Shown here: positions 17,303-49,395 of the stretch, in pieces
How positions within the stretch are numbered: position 1 is the first letter of the stretch
Layout: each line of letters opens with the position of its first letter
From: Tubulanus polymorphus
Taxonomy: Eukaryota; Nemertea; Palaeonemertea; Tubulaniformes; Tubulanidae
Assembly: GCF_964204645.1 (NCBI RefSeq)
Contig: NC_134029.1
Location: 3,481,001 to 3,545,000, forward strand
DNA: 64,000 nt
Reading direction: 5' to 3'
Notes under the pieces: generated by a model
Databases searched by the model: none
What the model was told of the DNA's origin: nothing
The model's input: the letters and a program-made list of their open reading frames with translations, nothing else
Translations under genes and position numbers: made by a program

Positions 17303-20300
17303 TTAAGGTTGGATAATTTGAGGTTTGAAGTATAATTTGCGAGCGCTTCTTCGGTTAAACTTGACGAAGCAAACTCCAGACGGATTGACGTCGCACATGA
17401 ACGTATCGCTCGGTTTCAAAGTGCCGCGAGACCGGTTCTCGAAAACGTCGACAATTGAATAGGTGCCGCTAGTAGTCTTAGTGATGCTGCTCACTCGCAA
17501 AGACACTCGTTGAGGTGTTCCACCAGTTCCCGTGTTCATTATAGCCACGGCAAAGCTACCTTTCGGCAGTATGGGTCTAGTCCAAACTTCAATGTTACCA
17601 TTCTGAAAGTGGAGGAAAAACAACATGAAACTCATCTTTGAAATAGACTTGATTTTGGCTGTATCCTGGCTTTCTGAGGCCAGTGTTATTTTTTTTATGT
17701 ACAAATTGAAATGAAACTATCCTGACAGGATCCAAAAATTTCTGATTTCCGTCATTAGAGGATGTTTAATTAAATCTTTTGCTGTGTTTTCTTGATTACA
17801 AACTTAATTCAAAGGCAAAATGGGATAACAAGCTTTGACATGAGATACTGACAATGGAGGATCCAGTATCCCTTGACAATTCTCTCTGGAAATGTATGTA
17901 ATAGATAACAATTTTTCATCTTCACGACAGGACAATTTTGGTAATGCCTGCACACTATAAGCAGAGCTCTTCTATTGAGCAGTAAGTTCATTACAAATGC
18001 TCAAACATTTCATGACAGTAGTTGTGTCAACGAACCTTCTGAATTCGGTTGCCTTGAATTCCCAGTGCATCCTGATTGATAGCGATTGCATGTTCATTCA
18101 ACAGTAAATCCTTCGACGAGTCGCGTATTGTTCGTAGATCAGTCGACATTATCAACGGCGATGCCATCACCGCCCACAGCGCCATCTGCACTCGCTCTTG
18201 ATCATTACTCAGTCCGAAATTACCGATAATCAACTGAAAATGGACAAAACTCGTTATAATTTTTCTTTTCTTGATTGCGATATGAAATTTTATATTGATG
18301 TAACTCACCTCATCCGGATCATTCCAAGATCCTGGTTTCGCAAATGAGCTGAAATTGTATTTATTTTGGCCGTAGAATTCGATAATGCTCGAGACACTCG
18401 CCCATGAATCCTGAATATCATTATAATTCCGCCACAGATTACAGTGTTTACTGATTGAGGCGTAATCCGGCTGAAACGTTAAAAATATTTTAGATTTTGC
18501 CATTATCAGACTGTAACATGTTTTGATGTTTCATGCTTTGAAAACGATTGTTAAGAAGTTAAAGTTTAGCAGATTATGATGAAGATGATGATGGTTTTAG
18601 TAAAGAAATTCCTGGTTTTGCATGCAGAGGAATGAATGATGGGACAAACCTGCATTTTTCCTTCATACGCTGGCCAGCTACATGAATACACTATAGGTCG
18701 ACCAGTTCTATTGAGAAATTTTCCTAATATCGGATATCCTAACATGATAAAAATCACACAGAAATTTAGATTAAATTAATCAATCAAATGTTGGGAGTGC
18801 AGCGTGCATAGAGTAGAGCTAGAAAGAAATCAGCTCAATCGAACCCTAAAAATTTTGAAAACTATATCAAAAATTTTAGGACTTGTGTCTTTTCTCTCTA
18901 TTTTCTGGTATTGGAGTCATTAAAACAAACAACAGAATCATGAAATCAGAGCAAGCTGTTGCAAATTTCATATAAATTTTTGCCAGTTAGGATGCACAGC
19001 TCATCATCATCATCATCATCATCATAATCATTCTCTCGAAATAATCCAGTTACCTTATCACGATTATAAACTGGATTTTCACAAGAGAATAGAATAGGAC
19101 GACCGGTCTTATTCAGAAAAAACTGCATTACAGCAACACCTAGATTTAAAGAAGTTATTGTTGTTAAAGGTTGTGATAACGACACGACTTAGTAGACTCC
19201 ACCATACTTTTCATTTTAGTTTATTTTCTTTTTCACTTTAGTAGACTCCACCGTACATCCAGTCCATCCAAAATGAATTCGAACATTAATAGTAGGAAGG
19301 TATCTACCATAGTGTTATTAGCATTTTTACTTCGAACAAATCCCTTCAACCACAGAGTTTTGAGCGTATGCAAGTTGTCAATTTCATTTAAAGTACAGAT
19401 TGGTGGAAATCATTATAACTTGTCAAATGATGTGGAAATTCGCAATACAACGTGAATATTGACACTAGTGTTTTAAAAAATTTTGGATTTTCATTGTGGT
19501 TTTGATACTGTCTGTAGCCGAATGGGGTCTGATTATGTTGAGAGTCAAACTATATTTTTTCTATAGTACCTTGATCCATCTGAGAAACGTCTGAATTGCA
19601 ACCATCAAATTTCACATAATCTACGCCCCATTTAGCGAATGTGTCTGCGTCTAGTTCCATATAGAACTCACTACCGGGATAACCAGCGCACGTCTTAGTA
19701 CCAAAATCTTCGTAGATTCCAAATTTCAATCCAAGCGAATGGACCTACATTAAAATAATGAAAAATTGTAAATAAGTTTGTTATATTAAATCTTATAAGA
19801 GTCTGTCCCAGTTCCTCAGTTGCGAGTTAGACTAAATTGTGGATACAAATTTGGGTTGAAAGTTCTCTAAATCATTTACCAAAAATCCCCAGCAACACAG
19901 AAATGTAGTATAACTTACATAATCAGCAAGGTGTTTAATGCCATTCGGGAATCGAACTGGATCTGGTCTGAGGCTCCCGTCTGGTGCACGGGTATGATCT
20001 AACCAACAATCATCAATTATGATATACTGATAACCCGCTGCTAGGTAACCATCAGATTTCATCTTCTGCGCTTGTTCTTTGATCAATTTCTCTCTGCAAG
20101 AAAATTAAAAAATAGAAAATGATGATAGCGAATAACACTGTTTGCATCAACGGTGAATCTAAGCTAAAATAGCCATAAAATTCTATTTAAGTTGACTTTT
20201 AGGTTAATTTGTTACATTTAGTAAGCTTATATAGGCCTACAGGCAAACTAATTTTTTTGCTGCAGCAGTATCAAGTAGCTGAAGTTACATTTAGTAAGCT

Positions 20301-20656
20301 TATATACAGGTAGTTAGTTAGCTAATAGTTGGTGGTAGGCTTTTTTTAATCGGATGAGCTTGTGAAAATATCCGATTGTGTAACTAAACCACATACACGT
20401 TACTGACTAATATACAGGCAAACTAATTTTTTTGCTGCAGCAGCATCAAACATGACAGGCCCGAGTAGCTGAAGAGGGTTGCAGGGACGGAGACTTACGA
20501 AATGCAAGTGTCAGGGAATGACTTGCAGTCTGTGACACATCTAAAGCGTTGCCACGTTAACCAACCCATTGGTGGGGTCCGTGCAAGTCCATTATCCAGT
20601 CCATCGATTACGGACACTGCACTAGCGACTACGAGCAACAGCACAAATATCTTCAT
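17303..20656 (-). CDS. NAGA: Lysosomal alpha-N-acetylgalactosaminidase / alpha-galactosidase (GH27)
   Basis: A glycoside hydrolase family 27 enzyme that removes terminal alpha-linked GalNAc or Gal in the lysosome. Exons: 20499-20656, 19919-20093, 19570-19744, then either 19054-19139 (4a) or 18650-18738 (4b), then 18309-18470, 18036-18233, 17303-17602; 417 or 418 aa (human NAGA 411). A signal peptide ([18 protein letters not shown]) precedes [13 protein letters not shown]. Conserved: DDCW, nucleophile Asp in VKFDGC, acid/base Asp in [38 protein letters not shown] and [10 protein letters not shown]. Exon 3 ends in phase 1 and exon 5 starts in phase 0; both versions of exon 4 bridge exactly that, so one and only one fits. 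Similarity favours NAGA over GLA for the shared exons. Head-to-head with MITD1. Confidence 0.93.
18650..18738 (-). other. NAGA: Alternative exon 4b: NAGA-type recognition loop
   Basis: An 89-nt exon (2 nt + 29 codons) flanked by TTAG acceptor and GTTTGT donor. It encodes [20 protein letters not shown] followed by [10 protein letters not shown]. The loop Ser and Ala (SCSWPAY) correspond to the human NAGA recognition residues Ser188 and Ala191. It keeps the N-R-T glycosylation sequon. If read after exon 4a the frame shifts and hits TAG after four codons. Confidence 0.85.
19001..19025. repeat. TCA trinucleotide microsatellite between the alternative exons
   Basis: About eight TCA/ATC units starting at 19001, immediately downstream (in gene direction) of alternative exon 4a of the NAGA-like gene. 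Its length may vary between individuals and could influence exon choice, though nothing in the sequence shows that it does. Confidence 0.85.
19054..19139 (-). other. NAGA: Alternative exon 4a: alpha-galactosidase-like recognition loop
   Basis: An 86-nt exon (2 nt + 28 codons) with TCTAG acceptor and GATAAG|GTAACT donor. It encodes [20 protein letters not shown] followed by ENPVYNRDK. Aligned with exon 4b, the specificity positions are Glu and Val (SCENPVY); human alpha-galactosidase A has Glu203 and Leu206 (SCEWPLY) there. The core NxTGRPI-SC and N-glycosylation sequon are kept, and splice phase is identical to 4b, so it looks selected rather than decayed. Confidence 0.82.
20230..20475. repeat. 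Local direct repeats in intron 1 of the NAGA-like gene
   Basis: CAGGCAAACTAATTTTTTTG plus CTGCAGCAG occurs near 20240 and again near 20415, each followed by GTAGCTGAAG; TTACATTTAGTAAGCTTATA also occurs twice (about 20212 and 20285). This suggests recent local duplication. Confidence 0.6.
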
Positions 20657-21459: not shown

Positions 21460-23189
21460 ATGGCAGATGAAAGAACGCTACAAGGGGTCGAATCATCTGC
21501 TATTGGACTTCTCCATAGAGCTGTTGAAATGGACCAGAAAGAACGTTTTACAGAAGCTGTGTTCTGTTACAGCGAGGGTATTAAACTTCTCCTTGATGTC
21601 GTAAAAGGTACATTCACACTTCATAATCAATTTTGGGCTATTCAAAATGTTTCAACCCCCTTGCCGCATACTCAATTTTAAGCATTACGCGATGAAGGGG
21701 AAATGGCTGATATTTGTAATGAGCAATTTTGATTCTGATTTCTTTAAGCTACAACTGATGAAAAGAAAAAGCAACATTTGAGAAAAAATATAGCCAGCTA
21801 CATGGACAGGGCTGAGACGATAAAGAAATCTGTTGAAAAATTGAAGGAGTGTAAGACTGATTACATTCCGCTTACATCTGTAGGTCGAAACGATTAAGAC
21901 TGATATTCATTGATTGAATTAATTTTAGCTGGAAAATACCACGAACAGATCAAAATAGAATCCAATTCTGTTGGTCATTCTTACGAGAAAATATTTGGGA
22001 GTTACATGGATGAGGCATTGACTACTGTTGAAATAGAAGATCCATATATTAGAAATGTGCATCAGGTTTGTTAAATGTTTGTGGTGCTGTCGGTGAGAGA
22101 TTAATCCATTTTTTTCAGCCTATGAGAAAATTTCCTTATTCTGATACGTCAATTTTCAGATTTACAATTTGCTACGCTTTTGTGAACTTTTAGTGAAGCA
22201 CAATCAAGATAAAAGGTAAGTTAGTACCGGTAGTACAGTCTAAGTCTCACCGTGTAAGTTGTCAGATTCCTAAAGTAATCCGTTTTTGGAGTGCATTTCT
22301 AAAAAAATCTTCTAAGTGTAACAGTGTTGTCATCTCCATATGCTGGATTTTTTACGGGGCTGCATTCATCGATGGCCACCTTTTGCCTCGATCTTTGTGG
22401 CATTCTCTGTGGTCTGTATTAATCTTGAAATTTGCCCTAAAACTGATGGATTAAAATACCGGTATGTCTGATTCCCAACTCTCATTTCAGAGGTAATGTC
22501 AAAATGATCAGACTTCTTACGGGCTTAGAATCTGATACAGTAAGTTTGTCACAGTGAACTAACAGTAGTTGGTCACTCTAGCGCAGCAAGTGTGTAAATG
22601 TGTGTTGTTGATCATTCCAGGGACAGGTAGATTCACAGAAAAATAAATTGTTTCAAATCAAATCCAGTCTTCAAAAATTCAACATCAATTTGACGATAGA
22701 ATTTTCTCCTACTTTACACGACCGTGAAATAAGGTACGCGCAGCGAATTTTGATTGGAGTACCACGAGGTGAATCTGATCGGTTTTGAAACTGACACCGT
22801 CAATTTTGGCAATCAGAAGTCGTCATCAACCTGTGATGAAACAAAGTGGAAACTAATTCACTGTCCTGGCTAGATGGATCCTACTTTGCCACAAGCAGAA
22901 TCTTCAATTGCTATAGTTCCCTCAATAAAACTGCTTATGGGAATAGCCATGTTAATTTTGGGACTGAATAGAAATGTCAGTTGACTCAAAAAATGATGAT
23001 CCCTATTATATCTTTCCGTATTTCAGATTCAATAATGGTTGGATTATCAAAATAGGACGAGGATTAGACATCTATAAACCAACCGAGACAAAATTTTCCA
23101 TCGGAAGCTGTGATTTCTCTTTGAGACATTGTCATGAAACGACAATTGATATATTTCACAGAAAACACACGAAAACTGATACCGGATGA
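21460..23189 (+). CDS. MITD1: MIT domain-containing protein 1
   Basis: MITD1 binds ESCRT-III proteins and helps coordinate late cytokinesis at the midbody. Seven coding exons: 21460-21607, 21749-21850, 21929-22065, 22160-22215, 22491-22539, 22621-22733, 23027-23189; 255 aa (human 249). The MIT helix bundle spans residues about 10-85 ([32 protein letters not shown]). The rest is the phospholipase D-like domain: [59 protein letters not shown] and the C-terminal [14 protein letters not shown]. Exon 2 ends at GAGT|GTAAGA, the only donor that keeps the ESGKYH frame. Tail-to-tail with Gemin8. Confidence 0.95.
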
Positions 23190-23648
23190 TGACCTTTACA
23201 CGAAGCCCGATGATATTAGAATGACTGTGATTCATGGCACAACAGCGGCCATGTTAAAATAATAGCCGTTCGATCAATATCTGTAAACTTCAACTTGATT
23301 AATGGGGCCCATTTCATAGCCTTAGGCAAAATTTCAGCTTTTCGTGGTTTCTCATTATTTTCATGTGGTTTATGCAGTAAACTCCACTCAAGTTGGAGTC
23401 GAATGAATCAGAGATCACTGTTTATACCTTAAATATGTAACTCGAATATACTCGCGAGTTTGTTCAAAAAGTTTGAAACAATTTTCACACTGCCTAAAAG
23501 TCGTACTTAAGTAGAGTCTACAATACATCCAATGTTAATCGTTTATTCCAAGTGATCTAACTTAAACGCTCAATCTCTGTCTCCATGAAACAAACCTTTT
23601 CGAGTTTAATTGTTGTACATACCATTGATTCAAAAATTATTTTTACGA

Positions 23649-35121: not shown

Positions 35122-49395
<14,274 letters not shown>

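Follow-up and report, generated by a model that had tools for sequence, protein, structure and literature searches.

The window, by which we mean the whole 64-kb stretch of Tubulanus polymorphus DNA analysed here, carries on its minus strand a seven-exon GH27 gene (~17.3–20.66 kb) whose start codon lies at 20656 and which extends to about 17306, with GT-AG at all exon borders and with exon 4 present in two versions, 4a and 4b. Exon 1 (20499..20656, minus strand like all others; 158 nt) encodes the signal peptide and the start of the GH27 domain, the match to 1ktb beginning at residue 20. It is followed by exon 2 (19919..20093, 175 nt) and by exon 3 (19570..19744, 175 nt), which supplies the catalytic nucleophile Asp in KFDGC and ends in phase 1 within a Gly codon. 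Exon 4a (19054..19139, 86 nt) encodes the loop SCENPVY, and exon 4b (18650..18738, 89 nt) the loop SCSWPAY, that is, the canonical NAGA loop. Downstream thereof lie exon 5 (18309..18470, 162 nt) with the acid/base Asp in RNYND, exon 6 (18036..18233, 198 nt) and exon 7 (17306..17602), which encodes the C-terminal β-sandwich domain (PF17450) and whose coding part ends near 17306. We regard this exon structure as nearly certain; it yields a product of 418 aa with 4b (isoform B) and of 417 aa with 4a (isoform A). Head-to-head with the GH27 gene, and with ~0.8 kb between the two starts, the plus strand carries at ~21460–23190 a gene which we named MITD1-like (MIT domain) by eye from its translation.

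Judged by its sequence, the gene is a member of the NAGA type of GH27. The best solved relative of isoform B is chicken α-N-acetylgalactosaminidase (1KTB; full-length match, E 4.7e-130), followed by human GLA and NAGA, and over their full length both isoforms match Melibiase_2 (PF16499; 439.4 bits for isoform B, 425 bits for isoform A) as well as the C-terminal domain (PF17450; 54.9 bits in isoform B). With animal NAGA (chicken 1KTB, human 3H53), isoform B thus shares (i) the full-length match, (ii) the C-terminal β domain, (iii) both catalytic Asp residues and (iv) the loop of type S-x-x-A-Y, with KFDGC, RNYND and SCSWPAY all being aligned with chicken NAGA. SCSWPAY is the canonical loop for recognition of the N-acetyl group, comprising S172, A175 and Y176 in the chicken enzyme (PMC548690, PMC5445309). 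In contrast to animal NAGA, however, the present gene possesses two versions of exon 4 and, in the part shared by the isoforms, Glu replaces the Met of NDPDM: the last codon of exon 5 (18309–18311, minus strand) encodes Glu (NDPDE) in both isoforms, whereas GLA and chicken NAGA have Met, as do 79 of the 80 bacterial relatives. At the position following NDPD, which in GLA is held by the pocket residue M267, Met or another hydrophobic residue would be expected of the NAGA type. Since it is absent from the 13 active-site residues given for NAGA (PMC5445309), we do not take the Glu to exclude NAGA membership.

The two versions of exon 4 are homologous, adjoin each other, and have the same phases (1 to 0), with exon 3 ending in phase 1 and both 4a and 4b ending in phase 0. 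Exon 4a is flanked by the acceptor ...AAATCTAG/GTGTTG and the donor GATAAG/GTAACT, and exon 4b by the acceptor ...CATGTTAG/GATATC and the donor ATGCAG/GTTTGT; the U1 pairing and the pyrimidine content of both lie inside the range of the constitutive exons of the gene. The original prediction had described tandem exons of 86 and 89 nt with intact splice sites and identical phases, for which the exact exon ends and GT-AG sites provide confirmation, and it had likewise correctly anticipated an early stop, after four codons, if both exons are included and a frame shift if neither is. With 4a and 4b together the transcript reads ...NRDK DIRY before a stop located 74 nt upstream of the 4b/5 junction, and with both skipped it reads ...MDQ AGLRLNQ before a stop located 139 nt upstream of the 5/6 junction; stops at such distances before the next junction are expected to lead to NMD. 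The frame by itself would filter wrong splice products. We infer that both isoforms are made and that they are mutually exclusive. One may argue that the pair serves as a productivity switch, in which double inclusion or double skipping creates NMD targets that set the enzyme level and the difference between the loops is secondary. Both wrong combinations do give NMD-competent stops, but such stops are expected of any frame-shifting mutually exclusive pair, and constraint on 4a at the level of the protein, as described below, is left unexplained, so that we consider a productivity switch quite improbable.

The duplicated exon has a counterpart in the human gene. Exon 3 of human GLA ends at c.547/G183, exon 4 comprises 92 bp (c.548–639; r.548–639), Met267 is the last residue encoded by exon 5, which stops at c.801, and skipping of exon 4, as encountered with Fabry splice variants, results in p.Gly183Alafs*18 (PMC10432374). 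As exon 3 of the present gene ends in the Gly codon corresponding to GLA G183, and as the length of its exon 5 (162 nt) equals that of human GLA exon 5, the duplicated exon is homologous, by position as well as by phase, to exon 4 of human GLA. Human exon 4 is the sole exon that contains both GLA 203 and GLA 206, the residues separating GLA from NAGA.

Over 25 ungapped codons, 4a and 4b share 13 residues and differ at 33 of 75 nt, third positions accounting for 16 of these differences; pS amounts to 0.73 (saturated), pN to 0.35 and dN/dS to ~0.17. When random change of the same size was simulated neutrally from either exon, at least 13 residues were kept in 0.04–0.09% of the trials (P 0.0004–0.0009), an outcome which is compatible also with past constraint and then recent decay. 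Neutral substitution in 4a, proposed along with the original prediction as a point to be checked, is thus rejected by the combination of saturated synonymous sites and 13 of 25 residues kept. The PF16499 profile yields 190.6 bits with 4a, 204.8 bits with 4b and 139.8 bits with exon 4 deleted, that is, a gain of ~51 bits from 4a, and 4a retains the N-glycosylation sequon (NKT/NRT), TGRP, the Ser-Cys pair, the Pro and the Tyr. Taken together, the constraint test and the 51-bit profile gain rule out that 4a is a chance open frame. When the whole genome was searched with a 48-aa query around 4b, 4a was the sole other exon-4-like match (E 0.010), and the search of the whole assembly revealed no third copy of exon 4. 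The saturation at synonymous sites implies that the duplication is old, and that relatives should hence carry 4a; a single viral_contigs scan returned no relatives of the exon pair.

An old duplicate might also be a relic, that is, an exon once used and now rarely or never spliced in, and the fact that 4a departs from the family consensus at two conserved residues would be in line with such a fate. The open frame, both splice sites and the phase of 4a are intact, however, and the protein sequence has been retained in spite of saturated synonymous sites, which makes a relic improbable in our view. We consider it instead highly probable that 4a is functional and used as one member of a mutually exclusive pair.

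The loops encoded by 4b and 4a differ at three functional positions, namely S/E, W/N and A/V. The positions determining specificity (Ser/Glu and Ala/Leu) had been rightly identified beforehand, with 4b carrying S and A and 4a carrying E and V; the count of two differences held for these, and the third, W/N, had been missed. Isoform A (SCENPVY) shares with human GLA the Glu of E203, but has Asn at W204 and, at L206, Val, which is bulkier than Ala and smaller than Leu; moreover, the protein as a whole is closest to NAGA (1ktb). In human NAGA, the exchange S188E/A191L raises kcat/Km for α-Gal ~4-fold (PMC5478728), and PDB entry 3lx9 represents GLA carrying SCSWPAY. Glu together with the bulkier aliphatic residue should exclude GalNAc in isoform A, and, given that this isoform is made, it is likely to reject GalNAc. 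Most likely, 4a and 4b are genuinely mutually exclusive exons by which the N-acetyl recognition loop is altered, with isoform A losing acceptance of GalNAc.

The exchange of the Trp bears on what isoform A may do beyond rejecting GalNAc. Of 80 bacterial GH27 proteins, 79 have Trp and one has Tyr where GLA has W204, and the Pfam profile favours Trp over Asn at this position by ~6 bits. W204C is among the causal Fabry variants (PMC10671142), W204G has been reported as pathogenic in Fabry disease (PMC7448968), and in starfish α-GalNAcase I the equivalent residue, W173, was tied to α-Gal activity by chemical modification and modelling, not by mutagenesis (PMC5445309). Exon 4a also replaces with Val a Tyr that is conserved elsewhere (GLA Y184). 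Isoform A agrees with GLA in one loop feature out of three and is not to be classed as an α-galactosidase; with Asn at a near-invariant Trp and Val at a conserved Tyr, it may be weak or inactive. A rival reading is that isoform A folds but has little or no catalytic activity (a decoy, a lectin-like protein or a dimer-poisoning subunit), through which splicing would lower activity without redirecting specificity. The replacements W→N and Y→V at conserved positions in 4a point this way, and schistosome GH27 paralogues without full sets of ligand-binding residues do exist (PMC8791529). On the other hand, constitutive exons supply the two catalytic Asp residues and almost all of the other pocket residues that are shared, which therefore remain, and the changes to E and V point towards GLA; we consider a poor or dead isoform A possible, though rather unlikely.

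Searches of the assembly (267.8 Mb, 77 contigs), which has gaps and withheld stretches, by Pfam profile and with the full protein retrieved, exon by exon, only the present gene as a member of GH27, and no PF02065 melibiase was detected in the assembly. A separate GLA gene, for which a search had been recommended with the original prediction, was not found in the assembly by either profile or protein search. The match at C11:7300448 was considered as a second GH27 gene, and was taken as noise in view of its E-value of 0.008 and two stops in its N-terminal end. Human NAGA possesses some α-Gal activity (PMC5478728), and in C. elegans both activities are present in homogenates and fall on RNAi of gana-1 (PMC548690). 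Since NAGA-type enzymes thus have α-Gal side activity, isoform B alone may cover both jobs.

With these findings at hand, one can weigh the scenario of a clean switch, in which isoform B is an α-GalNAcase and isoform A a true α-galactosidase, so that splicing would replace the vertebrate GLA/NAGA gene pair. A clean switch from GalNAc to Gal is plausible insofar as isoform A combines E at 203 with a bulkier aliphatic residue at 206, positions whose swapping shifts specificity in the human enzymes, and insofar as the assembly revealed no further GH27 or PF02065 gene. It is, however, at odds with Asn in place of a Trp204 that is kept in 79 of 80 relatives and changed in Fabry patients, and with Val instead of Leu at 206; moreover, NAGA-type enzymes already cleave α-Gal, and there is no obvious need for such a switch. 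We thus hold it to be possible but hardly probable, and doubt in particular that isoform A is a true α-galactosidase. The original claim that one gene makes both activities by splicing accordingly stands with regard to the exon pair, the frame logic, the constraint on 4a and the single GH27 gene in the assembly; its assignment of isoform A as an α-galactosidase is not supported as stated, given Asn at W204, Val at 206, and the Fabry variants W204C and W204G. That one animal gene gives rise to both a lysosomal α-GalNAcase and an α-galactosidase by mutually exclusive splicing of a specificity-loop exon, with an α-Gal loop (E-N-V) unlike that of the compared α-galactosidases, is a suggestion which we can advance but tentatively.

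The explanation that we prefer, and consider reasonably probable as a whole, is that of a single NAGA-type GH27 gene with a duplicated, mutually exclusive exon 4 and with an isoform A that rejects GalNAc. An old tandem duplication has affected exon 4, which encodes the loop for N-acetyl recognition along with a strand of the barrel. The exons 4a and 4b would now be spliced mutually exclusively; transcripts with both or neither are shifted in frame and probably degraded through NMD. Isoform B (SCSWPAY) would be an α-N-acetylgalactosaminidase with a side activity as α-galactosidase. Isoform A (SCENPVY) keeps the catalytic Asp residues, the disulfide Cys, the N-glycosylation site and the Tyr while presenting Glu and Val at the N-acetyl site; it would reject α-GalNAc and take a substrate without the 2-acetamido group, most simply α-Gal, with unusual kinetics arising from the exchange of Trp for Asn.

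In GLA and NAGA, specificity has been divided by gene duplication in textbook fashion, and swapping the two residues between the human proteins offers protein engineers a way towards treating Fabry disease. If the preferred explanation is true, evolution has used splicing to vary the exact loop that vertebrates split between the GLA and NAGA genes, and E-N-V would be a naturally selected third loop type, suited for probing the role of the near-invariant Trp. C. elegans gana-1 is likewise a single GH27 gene standing for GLA and NAGA, but has only the S and A loop residues and exhibited no alternative splicing in RT-PCR (PMC548690); that it is nevertheless associated with both activities speaks against the preferred explanation. 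Starfish α-GalNAcase occurs in two enzyme forms which differ in the same loop (SCSWPAY and SGSAPAY), the Trp position included, and which differ also in their N-terminal sequences (PMC5445309); for the latter reason, the starfish forms probably represent separate genes rather than splice forms of the present kind. Another instance of mutually exclusive homologous exons rebuilding the substrate site of an enzyme is provided by exons 6a and 6e of coq-2 in helminths, annelids and molluscs (PMC7434440). There, however, the enzyme is unrelated, the exons are of equal length, and their use was demonstrated by RNA-seq and exon deletion (PMC7434440). If our reading is true, the short list of enzymes whose substrate pocket is remodelled by splicing gains one more member beside coq-2. 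The open-access literature, which omits most subscription papers, yielded no earlier report of an alternative exon 4 in GH27.

As to how the exons might exclude each other, an intron too short to be spliced is unlikely because the 4a–4b intron comprises 315 nt, and U2/U12 incompatibility because all introns are GT-AG. A GAT/ATG-rich arm of 22 nt lies in the 4a–4b intron (19008..19029, minus strand), 25–46 nt downstream of exon 4a, and its partner, the CATCATCATCTTCATCATAATC arm, in the 4b–5 intron (18572..18593, minus strand). The two arms are complementary at 21 of 22 positions and would enclose 4b in a loop of 414 nt on the transcript, so that looping out of 4b by this pairing is a candidate route to 4b skipping. 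The window contains few long ATG/CAT tracts, although microsatellites are not random sequence, and duplex energies of the whole introns were no better than those of dinucleotide shuffles; in view of both points, we regard the pairing as a lead only. Upstream of 4a, two 19-nt direct repeats (19189–19207 and 19238–19256, minus strand), each reading GTAYGGTGGAGTCTACTAA on the transcript and containing a branch-point-like TACTAA, are a possible regulatory element.

Elsewhere in the window, a perfect 43-nt inverted repeat (45531–45573 and 45662–45704) with a spacer of 88 nt resembles a hairpin or a MITE-like element. A (CAG)11 tract at 41789–41821 is read as a stretch of poly-alanine which separates WW domains in a plus-strand, NEDD4-like multi-WW gene, again named by eye. 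The assembly contains no COX1, and searches for hemerythrin and for molluscan haemocyanin yielded no match, although neither of these two results proves absence. In the assembly at large, mir-2 family microRNAs, a sign of a protostome genome, are clustered, with 12 places in all (C3:4553143-4554909, C2:21716367-21717689 and C4:25613847).
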